Part shown: positions 3,962 through 41,243 of the stretch, piece after piece
Layout: the number at the start of each line of letters is the position of its first letter
How positions within the stretch are numbered: position 1 is the first letter of the stretch
Source: Marivita hallyeonensis
Lineage (GTDB): Bacteria; Pseudomonadota; Alphaproteobacteria; Rhodobacterales; Rhodobacteraceae
NCBI RefSeq assembly: GCF_900129875.1
Contig: NZ_FQXC01000004.1
Location: 124,001 to 188,000, forward strand
Direction of reading: 5' to 3'
DNA: 64,000 nucleotides
The notes under the pieces: generated by a model
The model's database searches: none
What the model was told of the DNA's origin: nothing
Seen by the model: only the letters and a program-made list of their open reading frames with translations
Position numbers and translations under genes: made by a program

Positions 3962-5830
3962 TCAGACGACGACGTCGAAAGGATTGTCCAGTACTCCGAT
4001 GAGCGGCGCGAGGAATGCACCGGTGTCCGGATCAAGCGCCTCGCCGTAGTACTGTTCGATCTCGGTCAGAGCTGCGTTTGTTCCTGCCTGCGTACCGTCG
4101 ACGAGCGACATCACCTGAATGGCGTCTTCCACGTCCGACAAACCGCGATGTACCGCATAGAGTGCGCCGATATCCGTTTTGGTGGCGAGATAATCGCGAT
4201 CGGCCAATTGCTGCTGGATGAAGTCCTGTGTTGCATCTGGAGCCGGATTGGACTTTGCGCCCTGAAGAACGGACAGAATGAACTGATCGCGCGCCACAGC
4301 TCCTGACTCCAGCGCGTTGACCCAGAATTCGTAACCAAGCTGGTCCGGAATGCGGCCCAGCACATTCTTGTAAACAGCCTCTGCGAAATCCGCGTTGCTC
4401 AGGTCAGACGGGTATGTTGCGCGAGTTTCTTCCTGGTCGTTGAAATGTGCCGCCATTTCGGTGAGTGATGTTCCGTCCGCGAAAGTGTTTCCCCAAAACC
4501 AGAGGCCGGTGGCATCCGGTGCGCGGTTGAAATATGCTATATACAGCTCGATAAACGACTCTAGGTCCTCTGCCAGCAGGTCTGTTGGGCCACCAAATTG
4601 CGTAAGGTCCAGGACTTCCTCTTCCGGATCACCATAAAAGACAAGATGTTCGATCTGTTCGACCGTATCCGTGCCGGTCCCGTCACTGCGCCGATCACGA
4701 ACGGTCGTTCCAGTGGGGCTGTAGCTCACCGTGTAGCTTGATTTTTGTCCATCGAAGTATGCGGTGTCGACCCCGCCTTGACCGTTCAGAAAATCGTCAC
4801 CCGCGAACCCTTCGAGCGAGTCGCTTCCGTTTCCGCCAAGCATCACGTTGGCAAAGGCATTTCCTCGAAGATCATCTGCGAACGGCGTGCCCGTGACGTT
4901 TTCAATGTCCCCTACCAACCAAACCAACTCTTTCGGACGTGAATTCGCAAGCGCACCTTCGAGCTGTTCCAGCGGCAGGGCGAACCCAAACATAGCGTCG
5001 ACAAGCGGCGTAGCCCGCGTGTCCGGCAAGGACACCCGCCATCCCTGTGAAAGACCGGAAGCATCGACGCGATCCTTTCCGGACGCATCCCAGATCGTGT
5101 AGTAGTAGTTCGTGTTCTCCAACACATGATCGGTATTGCCCGCGTGGGTCATCGTGTTTGCGCCATACATGTACTGCAGGGCAAGCACATCAAGGAGCAT
5201 TGGCGTTCCGGGATCCCACCTTTCCAGCTCACTTGTGTACTGGTCCTCGTAAGACATGATCGAGAACCAATCCATGTCTAGGATGTCGCTTCGATTGAGG
5301 TCTTGAATGGAGGGTCGACCGTCGTTGTTCTCGAAGGGGTGACGCAATCCCATAGCGTGACCTAGTTCATGAATGACGGTCAAAAACCCTTCCGATCCTG
5401 TCGCGTAACTGGACCCCGAAATCAGCGGGTCCGAGAAGTTCATGAAGATGTCACCGCCTTCATTCGGATTCCGTTCCGGTCGCGGATGATCCCTGTCCGG
5501 ATAATAAGCGTAGGCCAAGGTGCCGTCGTTAGCGACGGTATTGTCCACGGAGTAGACAATATCCGCCCCCGCATTCCCTGCGGCGATCGGATCGTCGAAC
5601 GTGCCAAGATATGAGAACTCTACTTCAATGAACGCCGCGAAACTCTCCACAGCACGGGTAAAGTGTTCAATGGCTGCCGAACTGTCATTCCAGACAAACC
5701 CGTCAAATCCATCCGACAGAGCCCAGGTGATCGTATTTGACTCAGACAGATCCCACTTTTGCCCACCAAAGAGGATGTCGATAATCGGATCGTTCGTCGG
5801 GCCAAAAAATTCGGCAGTGAGAAAGGCCAT
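3962..5830 (-). CDS. Secreted M10/serralysin-type zinc metalloprotease with RTX-like and DUF4214 regions
   Basis: The 622-residue protein has the metzincin zinc motif HELGHAMGLRH at residues 154-164 and the Met-turn IMSY at 191-194, the hallmarks of serralysin-like M10 peptidases. Residues about 319-353 hold one or two glycine/aspartate-rich calcium-binding (RTX-like) nonapeptide units. Residues about 425-560 match the DUF4214 type (AYFNRAPDATGLWFW ... VYKNVLGRIPDQLGYEFW). There is no Sec signal peptide and the end is acidic and hydrophobic (NPFDVVV), as in type I secretion substrates. No type I ABC transporter is in the window, so it must be exported by machinery elsewhere. GGGAG precedes the ATG. 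Its substrate is unknown. Base composition is AT-richer than the genes to its right. Confidence 0.9.
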   Translation of the reverse strand: MAFLTAEFFGPTNDPIIDILFGGQKWDLSESNTITWALSDGFDGFVWNDSSAAIEHFTRAVESFAAFIEVEFSYLGTFDDPIAAGNAGADIVYSVDNTVANDGTLAYAYYPDRDHPRPERNPNEGGDIFMNFSDPLISGSSYATGSEGFLTVIHELGHAMGLRHPFENNDGRPSIQDLNRSDILDMDWFSIMSYEDQYTSELERWDPGTPMLLDVLALQYMYGANTMTHAGNTDHVLENTNYYYTIWDASGKDRVDASGLSQGWRVSLPDTRATPLVDAMFGFALPLEQLEGALANSRPKELVWLVGDIENVTGTPFADDLRGNAFANVMLGGNGSDSLEGFAGDDFLNGQGGVDTAYFDGQKSSYTVSYSPTGTTVRDRRSDGTGTDTVEQIEHLVFYGDPEEEVLDLTQFGGPTDLLAEDLESFIELYIAYFNRAPDATGLWFWGNTFADGTSLTEMAAHFNDQEETRATYPSDLSNADFAEAVYKNVLGRIPDQLGYEFWVNALESGAVARDQFILSVLQGAKSNPAPDATQDFIQQQLADRDYLATKTDIGALYAVHRGLSDVEDAIQVMSLVDGTQAGTNAALTEIEQYYGEALDPDTGAFLAPLIGVLDNPFDVVV

Positions 5831-5958
5831 AATTGGCTCCCGTGGCGGATAGGTCGAAAAGCAAACACGTGGAATATGGGGGGTTTTGGTGAGTGCCGAC
5901 GATCAGCCTATCCAATTGCTTAGGCGAGTAAATGGCTATGTTTTGAATAATCGGAGGC

Positions 5959-37585: not shown

Positions 37586-38863
37586 TTATCCGCGGCGACG
37601 CGTCAGCCAGGCTTCGACGCGGCCGTTGATTTCGTCTTGCAGGCTCTCGTCCTCGATCTCCATCACCGCTTCGGCCAGGAAAGCGAGCGTCAAGAGGTCG
37701 GTCGCCGGGCCTTCTTCGATCCCGCGCGAGCGCAGGTAGAACAGCCCCTCCTCGTCGATCGCGCCCGAGGTCGATCCATGCGAGCACGCGACGTCATCGG
37801 CGTAAATCTCAAGCTCCGGCTTGGCGAGGAACTGGCTGTCCTCGTCCAGAAGCAGCGACTGGCTGATCTGGTAGCCGTCGGTTTTCTGCGCGCCTTCTTT
37901 CACGAGGATCTTGCCCTGGAAAACACCCGTTGCCCCGTTGCGCAGCACCTTCTTGAACACCTGACGGCTCTCGCAGTTAAGCGCGTCGTGGGTGATAAAC
38001 ACCGTGTCGTCATGGTGGAAGTCGCCGTCACCGACGCAGGCTCCGGCCACATGCGCAATCGCATCGTCGCCTGTCAGTTCGACCACCATCTCATTGCGGG
38101 TCAGTACGCCATTGGCGGTGAGCGTAAAGGATTTGAAAACCGATTCCGAACCCAACCGCACGAACATCGCGGTCGCCGCGCGACGCTCTGGGTCCCGGCC
38201 CTGTGCGCGGACGTGGTGCAACACACCGCCGTCGGCAATGTCGATCTCCATGCACTTGTTGAACCGCGCCGCCGCCGGTCCGTTTTCAAGGATGGTCAGC
38301 TCGGCCCCGCTTTCGACCTTCACCACGTGGTGCAGGATCGCGTCGGACGTTTCAGATTCGTGACGGTAGATCAGGCTGACCGGCTTTGGCGCCTTGCCTG
38401 TCACATGGATCAGCACGCCGTCAGTGGCAAAGGCGGTGTTCAACGCCGCCAAGGGACGGTGCACCGGCGTCTGACCGCGTGTTTCGAGCACACCGTACAG
38501 GTCCTTGGCCCAGTGAATATCCGCAGCATCGGCAAGACGATCGATGGTGACGTGCTCCATCGCCAGATCGTCCGAGGCCTCGGCGTCGAACACACCGTCG
38601 ACGAACACGATCTTGAGGCGGTCCACTTCGCCAAACACCGGTGTTTCTTCCGCTTCGAAGAGCGCGGCCTTCGGCGCGTCGGGCTGAACGAGCGTATCGG
38701 GCCGGGTGTACTTCCAGTACTCGTCCCGCGCGCCCGGCAACCCCATGTTCCGCACCCGCGCAACGGCCTCCTGGCGCGCTGTGTCAGACCATCCACCATC
38801 GGGCAGTGTCAGCGCGGCGAGCCGCGCATCCGTGGCATCCTGTTTGATCTGAGGCAGCGCCAT
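37586..38863 (-). CDS. sufD: Fe-S cluster assembly protein SufD
   Basis: The 425-residue beta-helix scaffold protein pairs with SufB. It has the SufBD core signatures LLDEDSQFLAKPELEIYADD and CSHGSTSGAIDEEGLFYLRS, and the earlier VFQGKILVKEGAQKTDGYQ. SufD holds a conserved His/Cys side of the SufB-SufD cluster interface. The start abuts the sufC stop (1-base overlap). It ends 9 bases before the membrane gene pair. Confidence 0.95.
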   Translation of the reverse strand: MALPQIKQDATDARLAALTLPDGGWSDTARQEAVARVRNMGLPGARDEYWKYTRPDTLVQPDAPKAALFEAEETPVFGEVDRLKIVFVDGVFDAEASDDLAMEHVTIDRLADAADIHWAKDLYGVLETRGQTPVHRPLAALNTAFATDGVLIHVTGKAPKPVSLIYRHESETSDAILHHVVKVESGAELTILENGPAAARFNKCMEIDIADGGVLHHVRAQGRDPERRAATAMFVRLGSESVFKSFTLTANGVLTRNEMVVELTGDDAIAHVAGACVGDGDFHHDDTVFITHDALNCESRQVFKKVLRNGATGVFQGKILVKEGAQKTDGYQISQSLLLDEDSQFLAKPELEIYADDVACSHGSTSGAIDEEGLFYLRSRGIEEGPATDLLTLAFLAEAVMEIEDESLQDEINGRVEAWLTRRRG

Positions 38864-39618
38864 TACGCCACCTCCGCCAGCAGATCTGCGTAGCCGTTGT
38901 TTTCGACTTCAAGTGCCAGCTCGGGACCGCCGGTCTTGATGATCCGACCATCTGCCATGATGTGCACCACGTCCGGCTTTATGTGATCGAGAAGCCGCTG
39001 ATAGTGCGTGATGACAAGGAACCCACGGCCCGCATCGCGCAGCGCGTTCACACCATCAGCCACCAGCTTCATCGCATCCACATCAAGGCCCGAGTCGGTC
39101 TCGTCGAGAATGCACATCTTCGGCTCCAGCATCGCCATCTGAAGGATCTCGTTGCGCTTCTTCTCGCCCCCCGAAAACCCGACATTCACGGGACGCTTCA
39201 GCATATCCGCGTCGATCTTCAGCTCCTTGGCTTTCGCGCGGATCATCTTGAGAAAATCGGCCGCCGACATCTCTTCTTCACCGCGCGCCTTGCGCTGGGA
39301 ATTCACGGCAGTGCGCAGGAAGGTCATGTTGCCCACGCCTGGAATCTCGACAGGGTACTGAAACGCGAGGAACAGCCCCGCCGCCGCGCGCTCTTCCGGC
39401 TCCATGTCAAGGATGTCCTCACCTTCGAGCGTCGCTTCGCCTTCGGTCACCTCATAGCCATCACGGCCCGACAGCACATAGGACAGGGTCGACTTGCCAG
39501 ACCCGTTCGGCCCCATGATCGCATGCACCTTGCCCGCCTCGACGGAGAGGTCCACACCTTTGAGGATCTGCTTGTCCTCTTCCTCAAGTTTCACGTGCAG
39601 GTTCTTGATTTCCAGCAT
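38863..39618 (-). CDS. sufC: Fe-S cluster assembly ATPase SufC
   Basis: The 251-residue ABC-type ATPase has Walker A GPNGSGKST at 36-44, the Q-loop FQYPVEIPG, the signature FSGGEKKRNEIL and Walker B CILDETDSGLD, all intact. It drives conformational changes of the SufBCD complex. GGAG lies 10 bases before its ATG. Its ATG overlaps the stop of the chimeric ORF upstream (TAATG), and its first 60 residues are duplicated there in decayed form. Confidence 0.97.
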   Translation of the reverse strand: MLEIKNLHVKLEEEDKQILKGVDLSVEAGKVHAIMGPNGSGKSTLSYVLSGRDGYEVTEGEATLEGEDILDMEPEERAAAGLFLAFQYPVEIPGVGNMTFLRTAVNSQRKARGEEEMSAADFLKMIRAKAKELKIDADMLKRPVNVGFSGGEKKRNEILQMAMLEPKMCILDETDSGLDVDAMKLVADGVNALRDAGRGFLVITHYQRLLDHIKPDVVHIMADGRIIKTGGPELALEVENNGYADLLAEVA

Positions 39619-39935
39619 TATGAAAGTCTCCAGCTTGTGTCTTCCCGATGCACGAGAAGATGGTTTTCGTTTGTTCTGTACCGTGTGTTCTGCGCAATCG
39701 TAGCGCCGGCGGACGCCATCAGCATCGCATCGCCGACACCGGCGAAACCGACGTCGCCCACGGTCGCTTCGTGGCCCTCGCGGTTGATCGGTGCATAGGT
39801 CAGTGCAGACTTGAGCGACGCGTTCGGCGCGGCAATCGCAAGCACATTGCGCGCTTCGACAGGCAGGTCAAAGCCCGTCAGGGCCTGATTGTCGTGCCCC
39901 TCCAGCTCCGTATGAGGGTTCCGGATAGTCAACAT
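39618..39935 (-). CDS. Chimeric ORF: decayed SufC N-terminus + YbjQ C-terminus + FkbM C-terminus
   Basis: The frame is intact: ATG 39935 with the alternative GTG 39941, and TAA at 39620-39618. By GTG numbering, residues 3-62 align without gaps to SufC 1-60 (about half identical), but Walker A GPNGSGKST is APNASLKSA, so no ATPase function. Residues about 64-84 (DVGFAGVGDAMLMASAGATI) match the end of the adjacent YbjQ-type protein ([20 protein letters not shown]). Residues 87-105 (YRTNENHLLVHREDTSW) match the end of the adjacent FkbM protein ([17 protein letters not shown]). The order equals that expected from a tandem ybjQ-fkbM-sufC duplication with two internal deletions. Its ATG overlaps the fkbM stop and its stop overlaps the sufC ATG, so translation is possible. 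Its product, if any, has no predictable activity. Confidence 0.85.
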   Translation of the reverse strand: MLTIRNPHTELEGHDNQALTGFDLPVEARNVLAIAAPNASLKSALTYAPINREGHEATVGDVGFAGVGDAMLMASAGATIAQNTRYRTNENHLLVHREDTSWRLS

Positions 39936-40726
39936 GTCCACGAACCCCAGGTCTGATCTTCCTCATGGATGAGAAGAAAGTTTCTGTTCGGGTTGTACTT
40001 TTTACGTCTCGAATACGCCGTGTATCCGTGTTCACTGACCCAGGCTTCGAAAGCCTCGCGATTTTCGCGATCAACTTCGATGAGCATACGTGGTTTGCAG
40101 CGTTTGACGGTCTCCTTGAGAGACCGCAGAACATGCATCTCCATGCCTTCGACATCGATCTTGATGAAGCTGGCAGCGCGATCCCCGATCACGTCATCTG
40201 CGGGCACGACGCTGATGTCTCCGGCCCCTTCCACAAGACGTCCGGCACCGACATTGCTCATATGAAAGTCGAGGCCGAAGGTATCCACAGCCGCTTCGGC
40301 GATACCGTAGCCCAACCAAGTCATGTCCACGACATCGTCCACGTGATTGAGCAACACATTGCTGACCAGCACCTTGTAGGCGACCGGATTGGGCTCGACC
40401 ACAACCACCTCGGACGGGCGCAGAAACTTGGCAACGAATAGCGCATGGTTTCCAACATTTGCGCCGATATCGATGTAGATGCCCCCCGGGGGAAACGCAC
40501 GCCGCAGGATTTCTAGTTCTTCCTGCTCATAGAACACGCCGTTCGCGTGATATTTATTCTGGATGAGGTCGCGACGCGCCGCGACCGTGAAGAACACAGT
40601 CTCTCCGTTCACTTCCGACCGCACAATCGTCCCTCCGGGCAACCGAAAGATGCCCGGCGCGACCGTGAGTTCAGCCAACTCCGATGCGGCGATGGGGTTG
40701 AGAAGGTCCTTCGCCAAGATTGTCAC
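39929..40726 (-). CDS. FkbM family methyltransferase
   Basis: The 265-residue SAM-dependent enzyme has the FkbM motif [16 protein letters not shown] near residue 90, followed by [13 protein letters not shown] and [17 protein letters not shown], which is diagnostic for the family. FkbM-type enzymes O-methylate sugars or other hydroxyls. It overlaps the ybjQ-type gene (4 bases) and the chimeric ORF (7 bases), so it is embedded in the suf transcript. Its end ([18 protein letters not shown]) is duplicated in the chimera. A role in Fe-S assembly is not known. Confidence 0.9.
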
Positions 40727-41043
40727 CCCCGGTCCGTCAGAACAGCCGTACCGCTCGCGGACACCATCAACATTGAGTTGCCAACAACTTCGTAATCAAG
40801 ATCGACCCCGATCACCGCATTGGCCCCGACAGCCGCTGCACGCTGTTCCAATTCGGACAGAGCGACATCGCGCGCGTCCTGCAACTTGGCCTCGTACGCA
40901 CCGGACCGCCCACCGACGATATCGGTGATCGACGCAAAGATATCGCGCACCACGTTCGCGCCCATGATCGCTTCGCCGACCACGATCCCTTTATATTCAA
41001 GGATCTTGCTGCCCTCGATGCTGTTTGTCGTTGTCACGATCAT
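40723..41043 (-). CDS. YbjQ/UPF0145 family (heavy-metal-binding domain) protein
   Basis: The 106-residue protein ([20 protein letters not shown] ... [20 protein letters not shown] ... [20 protein letters not shown] ... [15 protein letters not shown]) is a clear YbjQ/DUF74 member, a pentameric beta-barrel family of unknown role. The ATG at 41043 overlaps the stop of the 67-residue membrane gene (ATGA). Its C-terminal 20 residues recur in the chimeric ORF. Confidence 0.9.
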
Positions 41044-41243
41044 TGACGTCGCTCCATCCACAATTTTACCAGAATGCCTGCCACCCCGCCGCTCACCCCG
41101 CCGGCAATCGCAAGCGCAAGGATCGTGCCGTCAGCCCACAGCGGCATCGACAGCATCATGACCACCAAGGTCAGGATCCCGGTCAGAATCGCATATCGGC
41201 CTTTCGGCTCTGCCGGAGTGCTCAGCCACTGCCACAGGGTCAC
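41040..41243 (-). CDS. Small two-helix membrane protein in the suf operon
   Basis: The 67-residue protein has two hydrophobic segments ([20 protein letters not shown] and [20 protein letters not shown]) and a basic end (KLWMERRQ). It starts 3 bases after the sufB stop and overlaps the YbjQ-type gene by 4 bases, so it is certainly co-transcribed and probably real. No family is recognised. It could anchor or stabilise the following products, but that is speculation. Confidence 0.7.

Follow-up and report, generated by a model that had tools for sequence, protein, structure and literature searches.

A chimeric reading frame made of three gene ends in the suf operon of Marivita hallyeonensis: a probable scar of recombination between two suf haplotypes

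Ordinary bacterial pseudogenes include decayed fragments that adjoin intact homologues. For the effector-immunity arrays treated in PMC5361080, something akin to homology-facilitated illegitimate recombination has been proposed, and it is presented there as rare. According to the account in PMC9690577, RcGTA carries random fragments of ~4.5 kb, which are integrated by allelic replacement. As to neighbouring genes, the experiments described in PMC10666635 indicate that translational coupling requires overlaps or very short gaps; a distance of ~20 nt nearly abolished coupling.

An open reading frame (ORF) of the suf operon of Marivita hallyeonensis is compared here with these systems. The source genome comprises 4.19 Mb in 20 contigs, and the window, the whole stretch of DNA that was analysed, is 64,000 nucleotides long. 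On the minus strand, the operon includes a cysteine desulfurase gene, sufB, a small gene, ybjQ, fkbM, the ORF, sufC and sufD, with sufS further on; the desulfurases, sufB and sufD were named by sequence. The features discussed below are the following (window coordinates):

39618-39941, minus strand: chimeric ORF of 107 codons, GTG start at 39941, in-frame ATG at 39935, TAA stop
39750-39935, minus strand: SufC N-terminal fragment, codons 3-64; ungapped alignment with 32/66 identical residues, Walker A lost
39681-39755, minus strand: YbjQ C-terminal fragment, codons ~63-87; 47/75 nt in frame, junctions uncertain by a few codons
39618-39680, minus strand: FkbM C-terminal tail, assigned to type A by AU tests, codons 88-107 and stop; 15/19 residues shared with G010, 9/19 with the own FkbM
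39628-39632, minus strand: TGGAG within the FkbM tail, likely Shine-Dalgarno of sufC, a role suggested by position
39929-39935, minus strand: fkbM stop (TGA) and SufC-fragment start (ATGTTGA) overlapping by 7 nt, like fkbM and sufC in G001
38863-39618, minus strand: intact sufC, ABC_tran (Pfam); its start codon and the stop of the ORF share 1 nt (TAATG)
39929-40726, minus strand: intact fkbM, Methyltransf_21 (Pfam), type B according to the FkbM tree
40723-41061, minus strand: intact ybjQ, YbjQ_1 (Pfam)

Seventeen genomes of the genus were compared, including the own one, G000, which holds the M. hallyeonensis contig. The small gene upstream of ybjQ (41040-41243) has no Pfam match. Its matches among the other 16 genomes are confined to G006 and G001; at the same position an unlike small frame is found in G010, G002 and G015, and a similar one, judged by eye, in G013.

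The ORF had been described, in a sequence-only reading, as a collinear in-frame chimera of the beginning of sufC, the end of ybjQ and the end of fkbM, and its coordinates, strand and composition were confirmed; the order of the parts is that expected of a duplicated ybjQ-fkbM-sufC block. The SufC similarity is gapless, as claimed, and none of 500 shuffles equalled its score. At the DNA level, 66 of 186 nt differ between the fragment and the own sufC (17, 19 and 30 sites at first, second and third codon positions). The Walker A motif has indeed been lost, APNASLKSA standing where SufC has GPNGSGKST. The joint with the next part is non-homologous and fuses sufC codon ~64 to ybjQ codon ~87. The similarity to the YbjQ C-terminus also holds, the highest value among 3315 in-frame 25-codon windows from 10 other ORFs of the window being 38 nt as against the 47 observed with the own ybjQ. 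A profile of 17 YbjQ proteins gave the ORF only 9.0 bits, a score equalled by one of 1877 scored shuffles (2000 were made). A gapless extension of the FkbM similarity across codons 63-87 was considered and dropped in favour of YbjQ, since it matched at 28-31 of 75 nt, whereas YbjQ matched at 47. The last part resembles the end of the own FkbM, and none of 500 shuffles reached its protein score, so this portion of the claim stands; the attribution to the adjacent fkbM as the source does not, as the AU tests below indicate. A profile of four type-A alleles of FkbM matched codons 71-106 with 28.2 bits, and none of 1309 scored shuffles did as well. Our own base counts are 43/66 nt for the YbjQ part and 37/57 nt for the FkbM part; the sequence-only reading had given about 68% over 62 bases and about 71% over 28.

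None of the parental domains is recognised in the ORF by Pfam. There is no match to ABC_tran, and the alignment to SufC stops at residue 66, without a full ATPase domain; there is no match to YbjQ_1 (PF01906); nor is there one to the FkbM methyltransferase domain (PF05050), of which approximately the last 20 residues are represented. Membership in an unrelated old family was also considered and rejected. The ORF has a single Pfam match of chance level (E 0.1, under its cut-off), and the searches of the genus and of relatives at the default cut-off returned no relatives except the parental genes.

The full chimera occurs in one of the 17 genus genomes and in one of 101 genomes of relatives (an overlapping set). 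The suf loci of the 16 remaining genomes of the genus yielded no second sufC fragment; the one exception is a match within sufB of G003, and it is weak (E 0.02). When residues 63-107 were compared with 394 genomes of the family, nearly all one per genus, the one clear match was the own sequence; three weak ones (E 0.017-0.031) had no suf gene in the surrounding stretches that were inspected, except for one 28% ABC match. A family-wide search with SufC residues 1-66 for second copies was set aside, as other ABC proteins swamped the matches listed.

Across the genus, the interval between ybjQ and sufC (39618-40723 in the window; L033-L048) is a cargo site whose content varies. It is empty in five of the 17 genomes, holds a 289-aa gene in four (the one tested has an FkbM domain), a 203-aa gene alone in two (one relative tested had no Pfam match), FkbM of type A together with the 203-aa gene in two, type A alone in two and type B in two (G000 and G001). 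In G001 the type-B fkbM occupies two frames (L045, ~5154-5949 in sufC orientation), owing either to a broken gene or to a sequencing error. With this interruption, and with the small gene upstream of ybjQ common to G000, G006 and G001, either haplotype may have been the newcomer, a point against the explanation preferred below. Matches were found in 40 genomes other than the own one, and fkbM lies within ~1.5 kb of suf genes at 23 of the 29 loci examined there. Two fkbM genes in one suf operon were observed in G242 (L137) and G140 (L138), an arrangement that counts in favour of the explanation preferred below. In the collection of papers searched, none combined suf operon with FkbM or sufC with ybjQ.

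The phylogenetic analysis placed the FkbM of G000 and G001 (the latter by its C-terminal piece) in one clade, type B (support 100/98), and those of G006, G010, G002 and G009 in another, type A (98/91). The species tree built from rpoB, gyrB and parE (G001 from parE alone) groups G000 with G006 (98/99) and G001 with G012 (100/99); with the iscS-like gene, sufB and sufD added, the same groups receive 100/99 and 100/100. The comparison of the two trees indicates that type B is common to separate lineages, while the sister of G000 carries type A.

The FkbM tail of the ORF, over 19 codons, shares 15 residues with G010, 13 with G002, 12 each with G006, G009 and G001, and 9 with the own FkbM. Its placement as sister of the own fkbM was rejected by AU tests in five of five runs (delta lnL 17.2 and pAU 0.0013 in the first; 0.0004-0.0046 under four further models), and placement as sister of G001 was rejected too (pAU 0.0136; 0.022-0.035 under four models). 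G010 was the best placement; the A stem and G006 were not rejected. A place on the B stem was not rejected in four of the five runs (pAU 0.12 and 0.050-0.063) and was rejected in one (0.033). By these tests the tail groups with the type-A alleles, and the adjacent fkbM was not its source. It should be said, against an origin from two haplotypes, that the tail comprises only ~20 residues, that most runs tolerate the B stem and that its closest match is G010 and not the sister genome G006. For fkbM, adjacent alleles of different descent are found, as expected of a scar between haplotypes; the placement of the SufC fragment gives no such result.

For that fragment, placement under a DNA model was uninformative, all positions lying within 0.61 lnL of the best (0.09 for the YbjQ fragment). 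Under a codon model the G000 branch was best, followed by G008 (0.6 lnL worse, s.e. 2.4), G006 (2.2, s.e. 2.5), G001 (6.9, s.e. 5.9) and G010 (9.0, s.e. 4.9). This suggests that the sufC of the B haplotype resembled that of the G000 clade and not that of a distant donor, which suits haplotypes swapped among near relatives and also suits a self-copied sufC. The lack of a tie between the fragment and a G001-like source counts against the two-haplotype origin. The ybjQ and sufC gene trees, in which a homologous crossover at the other end was looked for, are weakly resolved around G000 and did not reveal one.

It had been noted that the junction of an fkbM end with a sufC start occurs twice at the locus. 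Two occurrences are present; their geometry differs, the overlap being 7 nt at the fkbM/ORF junction and 1 nt at the ORF/sufC junction. The stop of type-B fkbM overlaps by 7 nt the start of the SufC fragment in G000 and the start of sufC itself in G001, and the other 15 genomes of the genus lack such an overlap. The distance from the end of type-A fkbM to sufC is 1 nt in G006 and 2 nt in G010. In the remaining 13 of 17 genomes, sufC starts 40-68 nt past the previous stop, which indicates that coupling is not generally required for sufC. Outside the genus, the third codon starts in A at four of 36 family sufC loci, some of them from one genome, and two of the four have TGA in the same register. 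The 7-nt register is therefore not unique to the genus, which counts against the preferred explanation.

The motif TGGAG lies upstream of sufC in G000, G001, G006 and G010, within Trp-Ser codons of fkbM (Trp-Arg in the ORF), and is likely to be the Shine-Dalgarno sequence of sufC. The own fkbM/ORF junction reads TGGGG, not TGGAG, another point against the preferred explanation. Without the ORF, which overlaps its neighbours at both ends, fkbM and sufC would lie 310 nt apart. It is plausible, from this arrangement, that the ORF acts as a translation bridge between the stop of fkbM and the start of sufC, and the coupling spacer suggested earlier fits the overlaps and the intact frame.

The constraint on the SufC part was estimated by a codon fit run on a grid with fixed background values. 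A branch neutral throughout was rejected (2 delta lnL 10.7 with attachment at G000 and 13.7 at the root), and the best single omega was 0.2-0.3 at four of five attachment points and 0.036 at G010. A two-phase history, functional for 3-4 units and then neutral for 1.1-1.3 substitutions per codon, was 0.7-1.2 lnL worse than the best single omega at G000, G006 and G001, a nearly equal fit that favours the explanation preferred below. Since the terminal branch of G000 measures ~2.2 units (0.156 x 14.05), a neutral phase of 1.1 corresponds to about half of it. With attachment at G010 or the root, the best two-phase fit has a prolonged functional phase and only a brief neutral period after it, which counts against the preferred explanation. 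The FkbM tail shares a mean of 13.0 of 19 residues with the type-A alleles, which share 12.8 with one another; 6.3 would be expected under decay like that of the SufC part. A decayed SufC piece beside a tail with no excess decay points to the joint having formed first and the deletion having followed later.

The absence of stop codons is only mildly unusual. When 89 codons were left to decay neutrally in simulation, with 0.37 changes per site, a mean of 1.76 stops arose and the probability of none was 0.17, with a range of 0.11-0.21. The ORF contains no indel, and its SufC part is without a gap across 66 codons. The expected number is ~9.8 at an indel:substitution ratio of 0.1 and ~2.9 at 0.03 (P of none 0.05). 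Table 1 of PMC4978911 gives 0.30/2.92 for Agrobacterium tumefaciens; the test is rough because this is a mutation ratio and varies with sequence context. GC content by codon position in the ORF is coding-like. A single-sequence structure model has a mean pLDDT of 32.6 and no confident fold, which is weak evidence.

It seems somewhat more probable than not that the ORF is a recombination scar, in which type-B and type-A haplotypes were joined unequally, the pieces decayed and fkbM-A was later deleted down to its tail, leaving a likely bridge. The simplest history would be an unequal recombination between B and A suf haplotypes that duplicated the stretch from the end of ybjQ through fkbM to the beginning of sufC. 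B-side sufC codon ~64 would have been joined to A-side ybjQ codon ~87, with the product ybjQ - fkbM-B - [sufC-N/ybjQ-C] - fkbM-A - sufC. The joint could be the product of homology-facilitated illegitimate recombination, a one-sided process that can set two alleles next to each other, acting on transferred DNA that probably came from a near relative; at this locus the process is putative. A GTA gene of the own genome, the TIM-barrel gene (PF13547) at G000:C10:455957-456844 (L141), is listed in favour. The SufC and YbjQ fragments would then have decayed while fkbM-A was still constrained, as their divergence suggests, and fkbM-A would later have been deleted except for its last ~20 codons, fused in frame. 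The tail may have been retained because the Shine-Dalgarno of sufC sits in it. At present the ORF would probably serve as a translated bridge, passing ribosomes that finish fkbM on to the start of sufC, and selection would act more on its frame and length than on its protein. The two deletions supposed earlier are not needed, as the sufC/ybjQ junction can itself be the recombination breakpoint and a single deletion takes fkbM-A.

Other origins have to be weighed against this history. A tandem duplication of ybjQ-fkbM-sufC within this lineage, followed by two deletions, was the earlier proposal, and it would account for the collinear order, for the homology of each part to the adjacent gene and for the best position of the SufC fragment on the own branch. 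It conflicts with the rejection of the own fkbM as sister of the tail in every run, which points to another allele than the adjacent one, and with the junctions, the -1 of tail and sufC being near the +1 and +2 of type A, while the -7 of fkbM and ORF is as in G001; self-duplication in this simple form is quite unlikely. Another origin would be an array already present in the ancestor of the genus, with fkbM-B and fkbM-A in tandem around a sufC/ybjQ joint, of which different lineages lost either gene. The basal separation of A and B in the FkbM clade of the genus, the tandem fkbM genes of G140 and G242, the strong divergence of the SufC fragment and the B-stem placement of the tail, tolerated in most runs, would agree with such an array. 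Many parallel losses would be required, given that the other 16 suf loci yielded no second sufC fragment apart from the weak match in G003, and the SufC fragment fits best inside the G000 branch, so that this origin, too, is regarded as unlikely.

As to the role, the ORF may be a plain neutral leftover, its frame open by luck or youth and its last codons of use only as the Shine-Dalgarno of sufC. This overlaps with the scar of two haplotypes in origin and departs from it in role. The simulated chance of escaping stops, the fit of a two-phase model with a neutral end and, weakly, the structure model are in line with it. The rejection of a wholly neutral branch speaks against it, although functional ancestry explains that result too, and so does the absence of indels; a leftover without a role is possible, if doubtful. 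A new functional small protein assembled from three gene pieces is very unlikely. It would suit the omega estimates for the SufC part and the coding-like GC, but the same omega signal is expected from functional ancestry before decay, Walker A is lost, no relative was found in genus and family searches and the structure model (single sequence, weak) is poor. The suggestion of a gene-birth intermediate found no direct support. It may be proposed, tentatively, that a new short gene has arisen from the remains of three others, namely a selected open bridge coupling an essential Fe-S assembly gene to upstream cargo, perhaps with an early functional chimeric protein.

If the scar between two suf haplotypes is the correct interpretation, allele swapping in an important housekeeping operon has been caught through its scar. 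A gene end may then outlive its gene, the suggested cause being that the ribosome-binding site of the next gene lies inside it. The locus offers a testable case of gene debris possibly held open as a translation bridge, which bears on the origin of short orphan ORFs in operons.

Among described systems, the displacement of T6SS effector-immunity modules in Vibrio cholerae, as portrayed in PMC5361080, is alike in that a transferred module displaces an old gene and an older downstream piece stays. The V. cholerae modules described there keep whole immunity genes, whereas here three gene ends are fused in one frame within a housekeeping operon. The translationally coupled overlapping pairs of PMC10666635 are likewise similar, as the ORF overlaps fkbM by 7 nt and sufC by 1 nt; in known pairs both genes work, while the putative middle partner here would consist of gene debris. 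Compared with ordinary gene remnants, the frame is open across three fused parts, the last of which holds the likely Shine-Dalgarno of the next gene.
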